NCBI GenBank assembly: GCA_017462915.1
Contig: JAFTQG010000049.1
Coordinates: 62,001 to 126,000, forward strand
DNA from: Prevotella sp.
GTDB taxonomy: Bacteria > Bacteroidota > Bacteroidia > Bacteroidales > Bacteroidaceae
Direction: 5' to 3'
Length of the DNA stretch: 64,000 nucleotides
The notes under the pieces are model-generated. The model saw nothing but the letters and a program-made list of their open reading frames with translations, was not told where the DNA came from and did no database searches. Shown here piece after piece: positions 22,148 through 60,556 of the stretch (position 1 is its first letter; the number at the start of each line of letters is the position of its first letter). A program made the position numbers and the translations under genes.

Positions 22148-22237
22148 TCCATGGGACATCCGCACGCTCCATATCGGTCTCCTGGCAATGGTGTCTTCAC
22201 GTTTTTACATGCAGGAGATTACGGAACGGCTTGCGGA

Positions 22238-22325
22238 GGGTGACACTTTGCCAAGTAAAGGGTCACCTTTCACACGGCAAAGGGTGACCTTCCGCATGAC
22301 GAAAGGTCACCCTCTGGAAGACGCT
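22238..22325. repeat. 22-bp-pitch palindromic array 1 (GGTNACC type)
   Basis: Four units starting at 22238, 22260, 22282 and 22304, exactly 22 bp apart. Each contains GGTGAC or GGTCACC inside an A-rich/T-rich surround (AAAGGTNACCTTT); the remaining ~9-15 bases differ between units. It lies in the divergent gap between the receptor gene and a small OMP gene. A frame can be read through it but 22 is not a multiple of 3, so coding is unlikely. Confidence 0.85.
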
Positions 22326-36716: not shown

Positions 36717-36765
36717 GCAAAACAAAACCATTCACATCAACATCTGCCGACACCTATAAAATGGA

Positions 36766-36845
36766 GGGTGACGGTTTGCAAAGCAGAGGGTGACATTTCA
36801 CACAACAGACTGTCACCTTTTACCTTGCAAACCGTCACCCTTTTC
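36766..36845. repeat. 22-bp-pitch palindromic array 2 (GGTNACC type)
   Basis: Units start at 36766, 36788, 36810 and 36832 with GGGTGAC, GGGTGAC, CTGTCACC and CCGTCACC cores. The pitch is exactly 22 bp. Convergent intergenic position. Confidence 0.85.
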
Positions 36846-36919
36846 CCGTTTATTCTACAGGATTGATTTACTGATATTTACACTATAGTCATTCTATTTC
36901 TTGCATAACAGACAGCAGG

Positions 36920-38506: not shown

Positions 38507-38635
38507 CATACACCATCGCGGTGTTTTACCATACGATTCAGCACGTTGTAACACATCCCGAAGCATCTGATGCCACCGCACAAAACACGACCTTGCAAGC
38601 AACTGATAACCAACCATATATCCCCACACAAAATT

Positions 38636-38713
38636 GTCTTATAAGACTTTTTTAATTGTCCTATAAGACATTTTAAATTGTCTTATAAGAGTGTAAAAAT
38701 TGTCTTATAAGAC
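38636..38713. repeat. 22-bp-pitch palindromic array 3 (GTCTTATAAGAC type)
   Basis: Cores at 38636, 38658, 38680 and 38702: GTCTTATAAGAC, GTCCTATAAGAC, GTCTTATAAGAG, GTCTTATAAGAC. Pitch exactly 22 bp, four units, each preceded by AATT. Same geometry as the GGTNACC arrays but a different core. Lies 75 bp from the 3' end of the regulator gene. Confidence 0.9.
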
Positions 38714-38790
38714 TTTTTCGAAGCTATGTCAATATGAGAAAAGGGGGCATGAGGGCTTTTTCAAACAGTAGCTGTCATGCAGATATGCCG

Positions 38791-41181
38791 TCAAAGCGTT
38801 TCCTTGTACTCCTTCAGGCTGCGACCCATGATTTTCCTGAAACATCTGCTGAAATACTTCGGGTCGGAGAATCCGCACTTGTACGCTATCTCGGCGACAC
38901 TCGCATCGGGCTGACGCTCGACAAGCATCGCGGCATACTTTATGCGCAACGTCTGTATATAGTTGTTAGGCGTGTAGCCGAGATTCTTCTTGCATTTTAT
39001 GTACAGCAAGGAATTGCTCATGTTCATGTGCCTTGCGAAATCACTTACAGACAGGTCGGAGTTTGCCACATTATCCATAACGAACTCTTTTGCCTTGTCG
39101 GCAAAAGACATCTCGTCTGGCTCACCCTCTACGTCCTCCTCTATCTCGGTCTTGGAGTTGACAAGTTCCGTGACCCTGTTTTCAAGATAGTCGAGCTTTG
39201 CATCCGTCTCCTTCCTGTGCTCATCCATCTCGCTTTTCAGCCGCATGATGTATCTGTAGGTCTTGTATATGCCGATCAATGCCAGCACAAGCAACATGCC
39301 GTAAAGCATCCATGAGTACCACATCTCATGGAAAGCGGCTTTGCGGCAGATGGTTATGACACGCTCGTTGTCCACCCAGATGCCGTCGGAATTTGTCGAA
39401 GCGATATGCAGAGTGTATGTACCTATCGGGAAGTTGGTGTATTCTATGAAATTCTCCTTCGTGTAATGCCAGCCGTCGTCTATCCCCTCAAGCCTGTATT
39501 TGTACACGATATCCTCGTTGCGGTTGTAGTCGAGAGCGGCAAACTCTATCCTTACATTCCTCTCTCCCGGCTGAAGAGTGATGTTGTCCGGGCCGTTAAG
39601 GGCTATATTCGGCACATAACTGCTTTTCTCTATGCTGCGCGGGTCAAACATGAGGAAGCCTTGCGTCGTGCCCATGACGATATTGCCGTCGGGCAGACAG
39701 AGCGGGCGCACCTCGGAGAAGATCGTCACATCGTCAGAGAATCCCTTCTCGTAATTGACGACATTCTGCTTGTGCATGTCACTGATTTCCGTCAGTGCAA
39801 ACTTTCCCACGCCCCAGATATGCTGACGTCCGTCAACAGCAAGCGTGAGATACACGTCTGTGGCAAGACCTTCCCTTGAGGTAAACGAACGGAATCTTAT
39901 GCTGTCGCTGAGGAGATTGTCCGACAGTATCTTGCTGATGCCTCCGCCGCAGGTAGTGACATATATCTGTCCGTCAGCGGCACAGACGACATCCGTTATG
40001 TTGTTCGCCCCGATGCTCGAAGCGTCCTTGTTACGTCTCACATTCCTGTAGAATCTCATTCTCTCGGGCCGGAGACCGAGATTGCATGTGTACAGTCCTT
40101 TATCTGTCCCGACAACCAGTACGCTCTTGTCCTTGCAAACATCCATGCCGTGTATGTACAGAAGATTATCAGGACTGTGTCTGAGGAGATTGTTGCAGTT
40201 GATGAATGTCCTCGAACCGTCTTTCTTCTCGTTCACAAGATTAAGCCCGCCGCCCAATGTTCCTATCCATATACGTCTGTATCTGTCTTCCGTAATGGAA
40301 TACACGGCATCGGAGCTTATGCTGTAGGCATCTTTCTCTGAGTGCGAATAACGTGTCACCTTGTAATTCCCGTTCTTGGGCTCAAGGAGAAACAGGCCGT
40401 CAGGTTTTGTACCAATCCATATCCTGCCTCGGCTGTCTTCAAAAAATACATAGACATTATGTCCGAACAGCACACGCTTTCCCGAAAGCGCACCGTTACG
40501 CCCAAGATACTGTGGCGTCATGGCTCCATTATTGTATATCCTTACACTGCCGTTCTTGTCTGCAACCCATAGCCTTCCGGAACGGTCATAAAGCAGTCCG
40601 CGTATGATTTCTTCCTTAGCAGCAGCATTGTCCTTATGGCTACGTACCTTGTCCTTTACAAACATGACACGCTCCAGCCCTCGTGTAGAAGTGATCCATA
40701 TGCCGCCCTGACGGTCAACAAGCCTTATCTTCGCTCTGTAACCTTTGTATTCCTCCACAAGCCTCAACTTGTCGTAATAAGCCTTGAAGCGGCTCTCGCT
40801 ATGCCATCTGCCCTCTATCGTGTCGCGTGTCTCCTCAAACTTCTCTGTGTCACGGCGGAATCTGAAATACTTCTTGTTCGAGTAACACAGTATATCATGG
40901 TTCTTGTCCTCTCCGATATAGTTTATCCTGTTGACAAACAACGGACTGTCATCGCCTGGATAGACCTTGTATGTCTTGAACGCATGGCCGTCATATCTGA
41001 CAAGTCCGTCATGGGTAGAGAGCCAGATGTACCCTACACTGTCCTGCAATGCACATGAGACATCGGCATCCATCAGACCGTCAGAACTGTCATATCTTAT
41101 TATATGCACATCATGGCCTATGCCTTCTGCCATGATACGGCAGAAGAGCATAACAAGAACTATGATGGAAAGCCTTCTCAT
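38791..41181 (-). CDS. two-component-propeller sensor fused to AraC-type DNA-binding domain, without kinase
   Basis: 796 residues from the ATG at 41181; the upstream extension of the frame is repeat DNA. Signal (MRRLSIIVLVMLFCRIMAEG), then two beta-propeller halves made of regulator-propeller repeats (SVGYIWLSTHDGLVRYDG, SRGRIWIGTKPDGLF, RYRRIWIGTLGGGLNLV), a Y_Y_Y domain (IEFAALDYNRNEDIVYKYRLEGIDDGWHYT), one transmembrane helix (WYSWMLYGMLLVLALIGIY), a coiled coil, and a C-terminal AraC HTH (FVMDNVANSDLSVSDFARHMNMSNSLLYIKCK, SVAEIAYKCGFSDPKYFSRCFRKIMG). The kinase and receiver domains of hybrid two-component systems are absent, so it is a membrane one-component regulator. Likely ligand: a glycan fragment. 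Confidence 0.88.
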   Translation of the reverse strand: MRRLSIIVLVMLFCRIMAEGIGHDVHIIRYDSSDGLMDADVSCALQDSVGYIWLSTHDGLVRYDGHAFKTYKVYPGDDSPLFVNRINYIGEDKNHDILCYSNKKYFRFRRDTEKFEETRDTIEGRWHSESRFKAYYDKLRLVEEYKGYRAKIRLVDRQGGIWITSTRGLERVMFVKDKVRSHKDNAAAKEEIIRGLLYDRSGRLWVADKNGSVRIYNNGAMTPQYLGRNGALSGKRVLFGHNVYVFFEDSRGRIWIGTKPDGLFLLEPKNGNYKVTRYSHSEKDAYSISSDAVYSITEDRYRRIWIGTLGGGLNLVNEKKDGSRTFINCNNLLRHSPDNLLYIHGMDVCKDKSVLVVGTDKGLYTCNLGLRPERMRFYRNVRRNKDASSIGANNITDVVCAADGQIYVTTCGGGISKILSDNLLSDSIRFRSFTSREGLATDVYLTLAVDGRQHIWGVGKFALTEISDMHKQNVVNYEKGFSDDVTIFSEVRPLCLPDGNIVMGTTQGFLMFDPRSIEKSSYVPNIALNGPDNITLQPGERNVRIEFAALDYNRNEDIVYKYRLEGIDDGWHYTKENFIEYTNFPIGTYTLHIASTNSDGIWVDNERVITICRKAAFHEMWYSWMLYGMLLVLALIGIYKTYRYIMRLKSEMDEHRKETDAKLDYLENRVTELVNSKTEIEEDVEGEPDEMSFADKAKEFVMDNVANSDLSVSDFARHMNMSNSLLYIKCKKNLGYTPNNYIQTLRIKYAAMLVERQPDASVAEIAYKCGFSDPKYFSRCFRKIMGRSLKEYKETL

Positions 41182-41182
41182 T

Positions 41183-41320
41183 TTTGGTTGTTGGTTGCAG
41201 GTTGTAGGTGTTTGGTTGTTTAGTTGTAGGTGTTTGGTTGCAGGTTGTAGGTATTTGGTATGGGTTATAAACCTAAAACCGACAACCAAACCACTAAACA
41301 ACTAAACAACCAAACCACTA
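41183..41320. repeat. GGTTGT-type inverted repeat tract between ligA and the AraC regulator
   Basis: Left arm of GGTTGT/GGTTGCA/GGTTGTA units, right arm of AACAACC/AACCACT units. Contains a perfect 16-bp pair TTTGGTTGTTTAGTTG (41211-41226) and CAACTAAACAACCAAA (41299-41314). It lies just upstream of the regulator start and ends at the ligA stop. Confidence 0.85.
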
Positions 41321-49932: not shown

Positions 49933-49986
49933 CCGTTTCTTCATCATGTCGGGCAAGAAACCGATAGACAGAATAGCCGTTTCTGA

Positions 49987-50074
49987 GGGTGACCCTTCAC
50001 CGTGTAAAAGGTGACGCTTTATCATGTCAAAGGTGACCGTTTTCCCATCGAAAGGTGACCTTCCGCCTGTCATG
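49987..50074. repeat. 22-bp-pitch palindromic array 4 (GGTNACC type)
   Basis: Units begin at 49987, 50009, 50031 and 50053, each A/GGGTGAC(C/G); pitch exactly 22 bp. Convergent intergenic gap. A degenerate fifth half-unit may follow at 50075. Confidence 0.88.
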
Positions 50075-59932: not shown

Positions 59933-60202
59933 ATGTATTTAGATCAGACAAAGAAGACGGAGATCTTCACACAGTTCGGAAACGGTGCTACTGACACAGG
60001 TTCTGCAGAGAGCCAGATAGCACTCTTCTCTTACCGCATCAAGCACCTCACAGAGCACCTGAAGGTAAACCACAAGGACTTCAGGACAGCACGCTCACTG
60101 ACAAAGCTCGTCGGCAAGCGTCGTGCTCTCCTTGACTACCTCTACGACCGCGACATCAACCGCTATCGTGCCATCATCAAGGCTCTCGGTCTCCGTCGAT
60201 AA
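59933..60202 (+). CDS. rpsO: 30S ribosomal protein S15
   Basis: 89 residues, exactly the normal length. FGNGATDTGSAESQIALFSYRIKHLTEHLKVNHKDFRTARSLTKLVGKRRALLDYLYDRDINRYRAIIKALGLRR is the S15 core. Binds 16S rRNA central domain early in assembly. In many bacteria pnp follows; here it does not. Confidence 0.97.
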   Translation: MYLDQTKKTEIFTQFGNGATDTGSAESQIALFSYRIKHLTEHLKVNHKDFRTARSLTKLVGKRRALLDYLYDRDINRYRAIIKALGLRR

Positions 60203-60292: not shown

Positions 60293-60468
60293 ATTTTATG
60301 CATTACATATTTATCTGTATGGCAACGGCTGTCTGAACGGCATACACTGCGTACAAGTCCGACAGCATAAACAGACATTACAGCTATAGTCTGAAAGGCA
60401 TTATATAGCCAACATATCCTTTATATATAACACCCATACATTCAACACATTACACAATATACAACAAA

Positions 60469-60556
60469 AGGTAACCTTTTGCCATGCAAAGGGTTACCTT
60501 TTATTCTGTCAAACGTCACATTCCGCACGGCAAAGGGTCACCCTCCAGAATGTGTA
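60469..60556. repeat. 22-bp-pitch palindromic array 5 (GGTNACC type)
   Basis: Units start at 60469 (AGGTAACC), 60491 (GGGTTACC), 60513 (ACGTCAC) and 60535 (GGGTCACC); exact 22-bp pitch. Central base of the core varies (A, T, C). Convergent gap between rpsO and xth. Confidence 0.85.

Follow-up and report, generated by a model that had tools for sequence, protein, structure and literature searches.

Evenly spaced four-unit palindromic arrays with a 22-bp pitch in Prevotella genomes, candidate cooperative binding platforms for a dimeric protein

Why should a Prevotella chromosome carry, dispersed between its genes, short arrays of four palindromic units at a constant 22-bp step, and what might read them? 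The question arose from a 64-kb stretch of DNA (the window; contig C30, positions 62001-126000, of a 2.93-Mb home genome in 59 contigs), in which a sequence-only reading had placed four such arrays at 22238, 36766, 49987 and 60469. All four are present, with a pitch of 22 bp at every step, and the gene context given for them (three convergent, one divergent) is correct. The arrays of the window, including one of a second family, are the following.

Array 1, 22227..22323: cores at 22239, 22261, 22283 and 22305 (GGTGACA, GGTCACC, GGTGACC, GGTCACC), in a divergent intergenic region
Array 2, 36755..36851: cores at 36767, 36789, 36811 and 36833 (GGTGACG, GGTGACA, TGTCACC, CGTCACC), between convergent genes
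Second-family array, 38631..38718: four 22-bp units of the TTGTCYTATARGACAA type, on the 3' side of an 836-aa ORF, 38791-41301(-)
Array 3, 49976..50072: cores at 49988, 50010, 50032 and 50054 (GGTGACC, GGTGACG, GGTGACC, GGTGACC), between convergent genes
Array 4, 60458..60554: cores at 60470, 60492, 60514 and 60536 (GGTAACC, GGTTACC, CGTCACA, GGTCACC), neighboured by an 89-aa ORF, 59933-60202(+), that adjoins typA, and by an exodeoxyribonuclease III gene; an ortholog is present in genome G054

The GGTNACC core that had been ascribed to every unit is not exact in all of them, the exceptions including all four cores of the array at 36766, each with one mismatch, and unit 3 of the array at 60469, with two. 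Among pairs of cores in the window (at most one mismatch, at most 200 bp apart), a distance of 22 bp occurs 12 times and one of 44 bp ten times, the runners-up being 66 and 164 bp with five each. In the first 456 kb of home sequence, at least three cores follow one another in 30 chains with a pitch of 22 and in 11 with twice that pitch, 44, and in none with any pitch from 15 to 21 or from 23 to 30; the check that had been proposed, whether the pitch of GGTNACC differs from chance, thus excludes chance. Over the whole home genome a three-core pattern allowing up to three mismatches, for which a single array yields several matches, gave 542 + 524 matches versus 21 + 30 for the reversed control. 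A weight matrix applied to 812 kb of the home genome (the window plus 40 stretches, 28% of the total) detected 52 arrays and none on the reversed sequence; Array 1 scored 102.6 bits, the best score in the reversed-sequence control being 4.6. Extrapolation gives approximately 187 arrays for the home genome, the fixed pitch of the matrix meaning that indel-bearing arrays would be missed or score low. A motif-blind detector refound 52 of the 52 matrix arrays and added three at pitch 22, i.e. two of the second family and one at C12:18128; across the twelve pitches tested, it otherwise gave one extra match each at 14, 18 and 21.

Each unit comprises GGTNACC followed by a 15-bp linker, YTTYRC-NNN-GYRAAR, so that the bases between the cores, which had been described as not conserved, are conserved at all but about three positions. 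The repeating element is a 19-bp palindrome, GYRAARGGTNACCYTTYRC (in the home species GYRAAR-GGTNACC-YTTYRC), with approximately 3 free bases between copies. That the arrays have exactly four units is largely borne out: in 48 of the 52 arrays (four that score low or lie near an end being omitted), at least 5 of the 6 core bases match in 94-96% of cases at units 1-4, compared with 8% at each of units 0 and 5. The central T-N-A is weakly in register outside these limits (44% at unit 0, 27% at unit -1 and 25% at unit 5, with a background of 5.6%). The information content in the home genome is 1.04 bit per base within the arrays versus 0.03-0.04 in the flanks, hence no longer element is visible there. 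Covariation between the two halves of the linker is absent at all nine informative positions (z -1.3 to 1.2), the three central ones being uninformative because they overlap themselves; this, with the unconserved home flanks, argues against RNA hairpins and against recent MITE copies. The half-sites are not fully independent, since 4 of 28 pairs lie beyond |z| 2 (-5.1, 2.7, -2.1 and -2.2); two of these four are linker partners with common central bases and are affected by the overlap.

With respect to placement, 40 of the 52 arrays overlap no called ORF (of at least 80 aa) and 12 overlap one; by eye, the five overlapped ORFs that exceed 150 aa resemble antisense shadow ORFs. One of the 40 lies at a contig end, and the other 39 are flanked by gene pairs that are convergent in 13 cases, tandem in 16 and divergent in 10, the home intergenic gaps of at least 110 bp being 67 convergent, 172 tandem and 57 divergent.

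The spacing of the arrays along the chromosome is even. On contiguous blocks of the home genome the intervals (n = 42) have a mean of 14.9 kb, a range of 6.9-40.9 kb and a coefficient of variation (CV) of 0.45, whereas equal numbers of arrays scattered at random over these intergenic gaps, in 5000 repetitions, gave a mean CV of 0.95 and a lowest value of 0.56. None of the 42 intervals is shorter than 6.8 kb, versus 15.4 expected, the lowest count in 20000 placements being 5. Genome G088, with 15 arrays in 300 kb built on the core AAACGGNCCGTTT, has a mean interval of 17.6 kb and a CV of 0.32 versus 0.89 at random (P 0.0001), and G003, with 8 main-family arrays in 100 kb (leaving out a ninth, of a different type), has a mean interval of 11.1 kb and a CV of 0.29 versus 0.81 (P 0.002). 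Regular spacing of the kind expected of nucleoid-anchor or insulator sites is therefore found with three motifs in three genomes, parts only of which were measured, and the mean values, from 11 to 18 kb, are of the order generally quoted for bacterial supercoil domains. Selection against neighbouring copies could be an alternative source of such evenness. The longest home gap, of 41 kb, consists mostly of one AT-rich gene cluster on a single strand; this 32-kb cluster (G000:C30:185779-218015) was probably acquired.

The same geometry is found in relatives, with other palindromes. GGTNACC is not general in the group: of 39 other genomes only G010 has it in number, in the form GRTNAYC, and the near relatives G054 and G075 have the home motif in single arrays. 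A motif-blind scan at typA loci, which were picked without regard to arrays, revealed 42 four-unit palindromic arrays at pitch 22 in 40 genomes of the genus (790 kb, strict setting), other pitches from 18 to 26 giving 0-4 each. In other families of the order (20 of the 36 genomes with a typA match; 352 kb, strict setting), there were 2 arrays at pitch 22 and 0-1 at other pitches. Under a loose setting, which also yields 0-7 matches at each other pitch, one or more arrays were seen in the typA stretch examined of 25 of the 40 genomes of the genus, the other 15 showing none. At 80 named loci, from partly overlapping genomes, the counts were 42 at pitch 22, 12 at pitch 18 and 9 at pitch 21, the latter two classes being a mixture of arrays with 9-bp units, genuine-looking 21-bp arrays, and coding and simple repeats.

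The cores differ from genome to genome: G088 has AAACGGNCCGTTT, G074 TCTACATGTAGA, G119 AAATCAATTTGATTT, G051 and G060 AAAAGRCNGYCTTTT, G012 and G059 AAAGCATAGCTTT (adjoining hup in both), and G003 both a TCATCATGATGA type and a GAGAGSCTCTC type; more than one array family occurs in the home genome, G003, G121 and G059. Common to many arrays is a backbone, GYAAAA-N7-TTTTRC, the mean fit to which is 0.675 over 64 arrays; 200 random palindromic templates gave a mean of 0.521 and a maximum of 0.546, the backbone template having been chosen after inspection of the data. Across the genus, the array geometry is retained while the core palindrome turns over.

Other geometries were also seen, in a few species. 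Arrays with 9-bp units (pitch 18) occur at locus L208 of Prevotella ihumii (5849, 9276, 11901 and 15934) and at L184 (7417 and 12339), their types being GTCGGAC, ACGTTCATA and GCTATAGAT; these are perhaps a further pitch class of the same idea. Four-unit palindromic arrays at pitch 21 lie at L215 (9645 and 19192), L218 (9509) and L114 (16063). Beyond Prevotella, 22-bp arrays of four palindromes are present at L133 (349) in G136, which belongs to another family of the order, at L228 (5387) in Bacteroides caecigallinarum and at L230 (1997) in Phocaeicola faecalis, their types being CACATATGTG, CGTTACACG-CGTGTAACG and GTACGCGTA.

At the one locus compared, an array is vertically inherited: that at 60469 has an ortholog in G054, with identity at 81 of 92 array bases and 341 of 415 flank bases. 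In G079 (TypA 97% identical) an array with one changed half-site lies about as far upstream of typA, and in G075 (TypA 98%) none was detected at the typA-upstream site, with one array lying 5.5 kb off. The nearest TypA matches in named genomes are Prevotella MAGs at 93% or less, and the closest kin of the home genome are possibly absent from the list. Genus-wide, arrays do not clearly keep their position at typA; 8 genomes have an array within 1.5 kb upstream of typA versus 3.9 expected from a uniform density that ignores intergenic bias. No gene-array adjacency was found to be shared between the home genome, G088 and G003, a comparison resting on 29 and 5 reciprocal best hits, too few to judge.

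From the sites, with their symmetry, unit number and pitch, their spacing in the parts read, the turnover of the motif and the single vertical inheritance, all of which are observed, we infer a protein, its cooperativity, bending of the DNA and a role in chromosome architecture. Our preferred reading, held with moderate confidence, is that the arrays are cooperative binding platforms of a dimeric protein which sits at regular intervals along the chromosome as a marker or anchor. On each array a single sequence-specific DNA-binding protein would bind as four dimers side by side, with each dimer predicted to read one 19-bp palindrome; as the 22-bp step corresponds to two helical turns, the dimers would lie on nearly one face of the DNA, where mutual contact is possible. 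A bendable T-N-A step would be present at every dyad, and the dimer may bend the DNA there. Recurring about every 15 kb, the platforms would serve as nucleoid anchor or insulation points, i.e. as loop bases or supercoil-domain boundaries, and co-evolution of protein and site would allow the core to drift between species with pitch, unit number and spacing kept.

Some features of this proposal have precedents. The matS sites of MatP, the Noc binding sites, the SlmA sites and parS are, like the arrays, dispersed palindromes read by a chromosome-organising protein, although they are single rather than four in a row and their sequences are conserved among relatives; we know of no even spacing of such sites all round a chromosome. 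Plasmid iterons, bound cooperatively and repeated approximately two helical turns apart, form one cluster beside a rep gene, whereas the arrays are many and dispersed. The arrays also differ from CRISPR arrays, in which a constant repeat alternates with variable spacers of like length and in variable number, since they have four degenerate units whose 19-bp palindromes are separated by about 3 free bases. Porphyromonas gingivalis, which belongs to the same order as Prevotella, has intergenic tandem units of 22-23 bp. As described in the accessible part of the report on that species, its BrickBuilt elements (19 in number) comprise 1 to 22.8 direct repeats of 23 nt with a leader, a tail and terminal inverted repeats, and so differ from the arrays in pitch, number and ends; 22-nt tandem repeats are mentioned there for strain W83, as are 23- and 41-nt tandem repeats for the species (PMC4596501). 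Closer still is PINSR, a 188-bp intergenic, non-coding repeat of the Prevotella intermedia/nigrescens group, which occurs 177 times in a 3.1-Mb genome and 184 times in one of 2.7 Mb (PMC4755523), a copy number and placement shared by the home arrays, with approximately 187 per 2.93 Mb and 40 of 52 overlapping no ORF. The accessible text of that report describes PINSR as a lineage-specific repeat and says nothing of repeating units, of their pitch, of spacing or of related elements in other clades; it records P. disiens ATCC 29426 as PINSR-positive by PCR (PMC4755523). In a 21.8-kb locus of the latter strain we found three candidate 22-bp arrays under the loose setting (with two matches at pitch 21 and one at pitch 23), in one of which 63 bases align with an element of G064 at 79% identity. 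PINSR is probably the P. intermedia form of the arrays, likened to them by description rather than by consensus letters. Among the papers listed by searches of the open-licence PMC literature, none was seen to describe Prevotella repeats with a pitch of 22 bp or with even spacing, the nearest descriptions being those of PINSR and of the P. gingivalis repeats.

The relationship to PINSR raises the alternative that the arrays belong to a non-autonomous mobile or amplifying repeat, PINSR- or MITE-like, of which the four-unit core is the best conserved part and whose spacing arises from selection or target immunity. In G064 and G017, 6 of the 7 copies compared share 193-360 bp, flanks included, at 76-88% identity (the longer repeat being present at L130 11241 and 14849, L289 373, and L067 7282 and 14784), with the seventh (G064e) matching over short stretches only; as the array is there set in a larger conserved repeat, repeat amplification is a fair description for those genomes, and some flank conservation is seen both in them and in G088. 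Pointing the same way, several arrays contain repeats of 13-16 bp in inverted or direct orientation, the second family, whose linkers resemble one another across species, occurs in 11 of 299 genomes of the genus, and the 188-bp PINSR has 177-184 copies (PMC4755523). The home genome argues otherwise: its flanks are almost devoid of information, neither conserved ends nor a leader and tail, as in MITEs or BrickBuilt, delimit a longer element, and the one locus compared is vertically inherited. In the available portion of its description, PINSR is itself without terminal inverted repeats, with about three-quarters of its regions conserved between two strains, and is absent from most strain-specific regions (PMC4755523). 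REP, BIME and REPIN elements, as far as the accessible text of the reports goes, resemble the arrays as dispersed intergenic palindromes in large numbers, regularly spaced within a composite element (PMC3733652, PMC2817692); they form hairpins with GTAG or CGTC tags, the GTAG type being thought to be mobilised by RAYT (PMC3733652), whereas the arrays show no hairpin covariation, and the RAYT (Y1) transposase family PF01797 has 0 matches in the home genome, compared with 5 of 14 control genomes. Overall, we consider a mobile origin unlikely as a general account.

The arrays might instead be operators for a conventional transcription factor whose regulon is very large, as palindromic intergenic sites, 10 of 39 between divergent and 16 of 39 between tandem genes, would allow; that the remaining 13 have convergent neighbours, a setting in which a promoter is unexpected, that the gap counts reveal no lean towards promoter-bearing gaps, and that even spacing would be left unexplained, make this improbable. 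Still less credible is an element acting at the RNA level, such as a bidirectional terminator or a structured transcript: the palindromes and linkers are able to pair, and units 1 and 4 of Array 2 are linked by a perfect 16-bp inverted repeat, but the absence of covariation between linker halves at the nine informative positions, the two-DNA-turn pitch, which has no obvious meaning for RNA, and the 10 arrays between divergent genes all count against it. Intrinsic curvature involving no specific protein, arising from A/T tracts phased at approximately 11 bp, would accord with the AA/TT distribution in 64 arrays (shares of 0.26 at the 11-bp and 0.21 at the 5.5-bp harmonic, versus 0.09 each if even); as curvature alone needs no 7-bp core between the tracts and that core is strongly conserved in the home genome, we deem this explanation very improbable. 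A role as self-DNA tags, i.e. species-specific marks spread for a repair, uptake or defence machinery in the manner of Chi sites or uptake sequences, would suit the species-specific sequence with common geometry, the even spread, the AT-rich one-strand cluster that makes up most of the longest gap, and viral contigs, in which no exact three-unit match to either array family was found. The strict three-unit pattern is insensitive, however, one gap was examined, and known tags of this type are short, single and far denser; we assign such a role a low probability.

Returning to the preferred reading of platforms for a dimeric protein, it may be extended, tentatively, to a genus-wide ruler, in which a fast-evolving dimeric protein and its four-dimer platforms divide the chromosomes of Prevotella into loops some 10-20 kb long, with the core replaced species by species. 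If so, the core would have been replaced at some two hundred sites per species with the architecture fixed, much as centromere or hotspot sequences co-evolve with their binding proteins, but here in bacteria. For the debated question whether supercoil domains have fixed, sequence-coded borders, the arrays provide a correctly spaced sequence mark, present in several species and open to deletion, relocation or pull-down. Motif change at many sites with constant geometry likewise makes a clean case for studies of protein-site co-evolution, and PINSR, a repeat of unknown function reported in 2015, would gain a possible meaning.

The sequence-only reading had proposed a cooperatively binding dimeric protein, possibly nucleoid-structuring, and had argued against recent tandem duplication, a proposal that fits the fixed pitch and number, the lack of linker-half pairing, the even spacing and the vertically inherited array; the protein itself was not found, none of canonical HU, an HU-related protein (HU_rel) and ParB being tied to the main family. 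Under the loose setting, hup is followed by an array in the home genome and in 6 of 20 others, one of these arrays being weak, but not in the three nearest relatives; by a rough estimate the association is not above that expected from intergenic density, and canonical HU was rejected as the binder. Identity of canonical HU to the home protein is 91-94% in the three nearest relatives and 57-82% in the other genus genomes searched, which is loose for HU, that of TypA being 82-99%. HU_rel was rejected as a general binder, because 0 of 15 HU_rel-like matches in G064 and G017 (of 16 found) have an array in the 3' 0.8 kb, compared with 18 of 144 control windows. Two other home HU_rel-like genes (L266 and L267) have no array within the surrounding 3.3 kb, and three home ParB_N genes have none in the 3.2-3.3 kb around each and provided no lead. 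A TTGATWATCAA-like flanking motif, seen near 16 arrays versus 3.6 expected without intergenic control, was dropped after comparison with other intergenic DNA, the ratios being 0.65, 3.11, 0.82 and 2.38 on few matches.

A co-occurring DNA-binding gene, such as the sequence-only reading had suggested looking for, was found for the minor, second family, TTGTCYTATARGACAA, which travels with an HU-like protein. This family has two copies in the home sample, at 38631-38718 of the window and at G000:C24:94691-94778, and is present in 11 of 299 genus genomes, home included (loci L231-L241). Of 119 genomes searched, 6 contain the HU_rel gene (TIGR01201); every one of these carries the second family, with an array approximately 60-215 bp past the 3' end of the gene. 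In G116 an interrupted HU_rel copy occupies the equivalent position; a second, partial HU_rel copy in G282 has no array among the second-family matches, and G017, G064, G077 and G081 have arrays with the HU_rel gene only as distant relatives. The combination looks like a gene-plus-array cassette, of which the HU-like protein may be the reader, and the likeness of the linkers between species suggests horizontal spread. In a plasmid collection there was no match to two array regions, and the HU_rel protein query gave 13 records, all below 60% identity; among viral contigs no relative of the HU_rel protein was found. The link between HU_rel and the second family does not extend to the main families.

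Two smaller observations concern individual copies. The left flank of the longer repeat in G064 and G017, TTTTGTAAAGATAATTCCCTTAAAAAGTGATAACTG, is promoter-like by eye. Downstream of hup on another contig of the home genome (G000:C47; L268, 1823-1910), near-perfect tandem 22-bp repeats, GTGATAGTGCCTTTTCTGTCTT, are followed by a main-family array.
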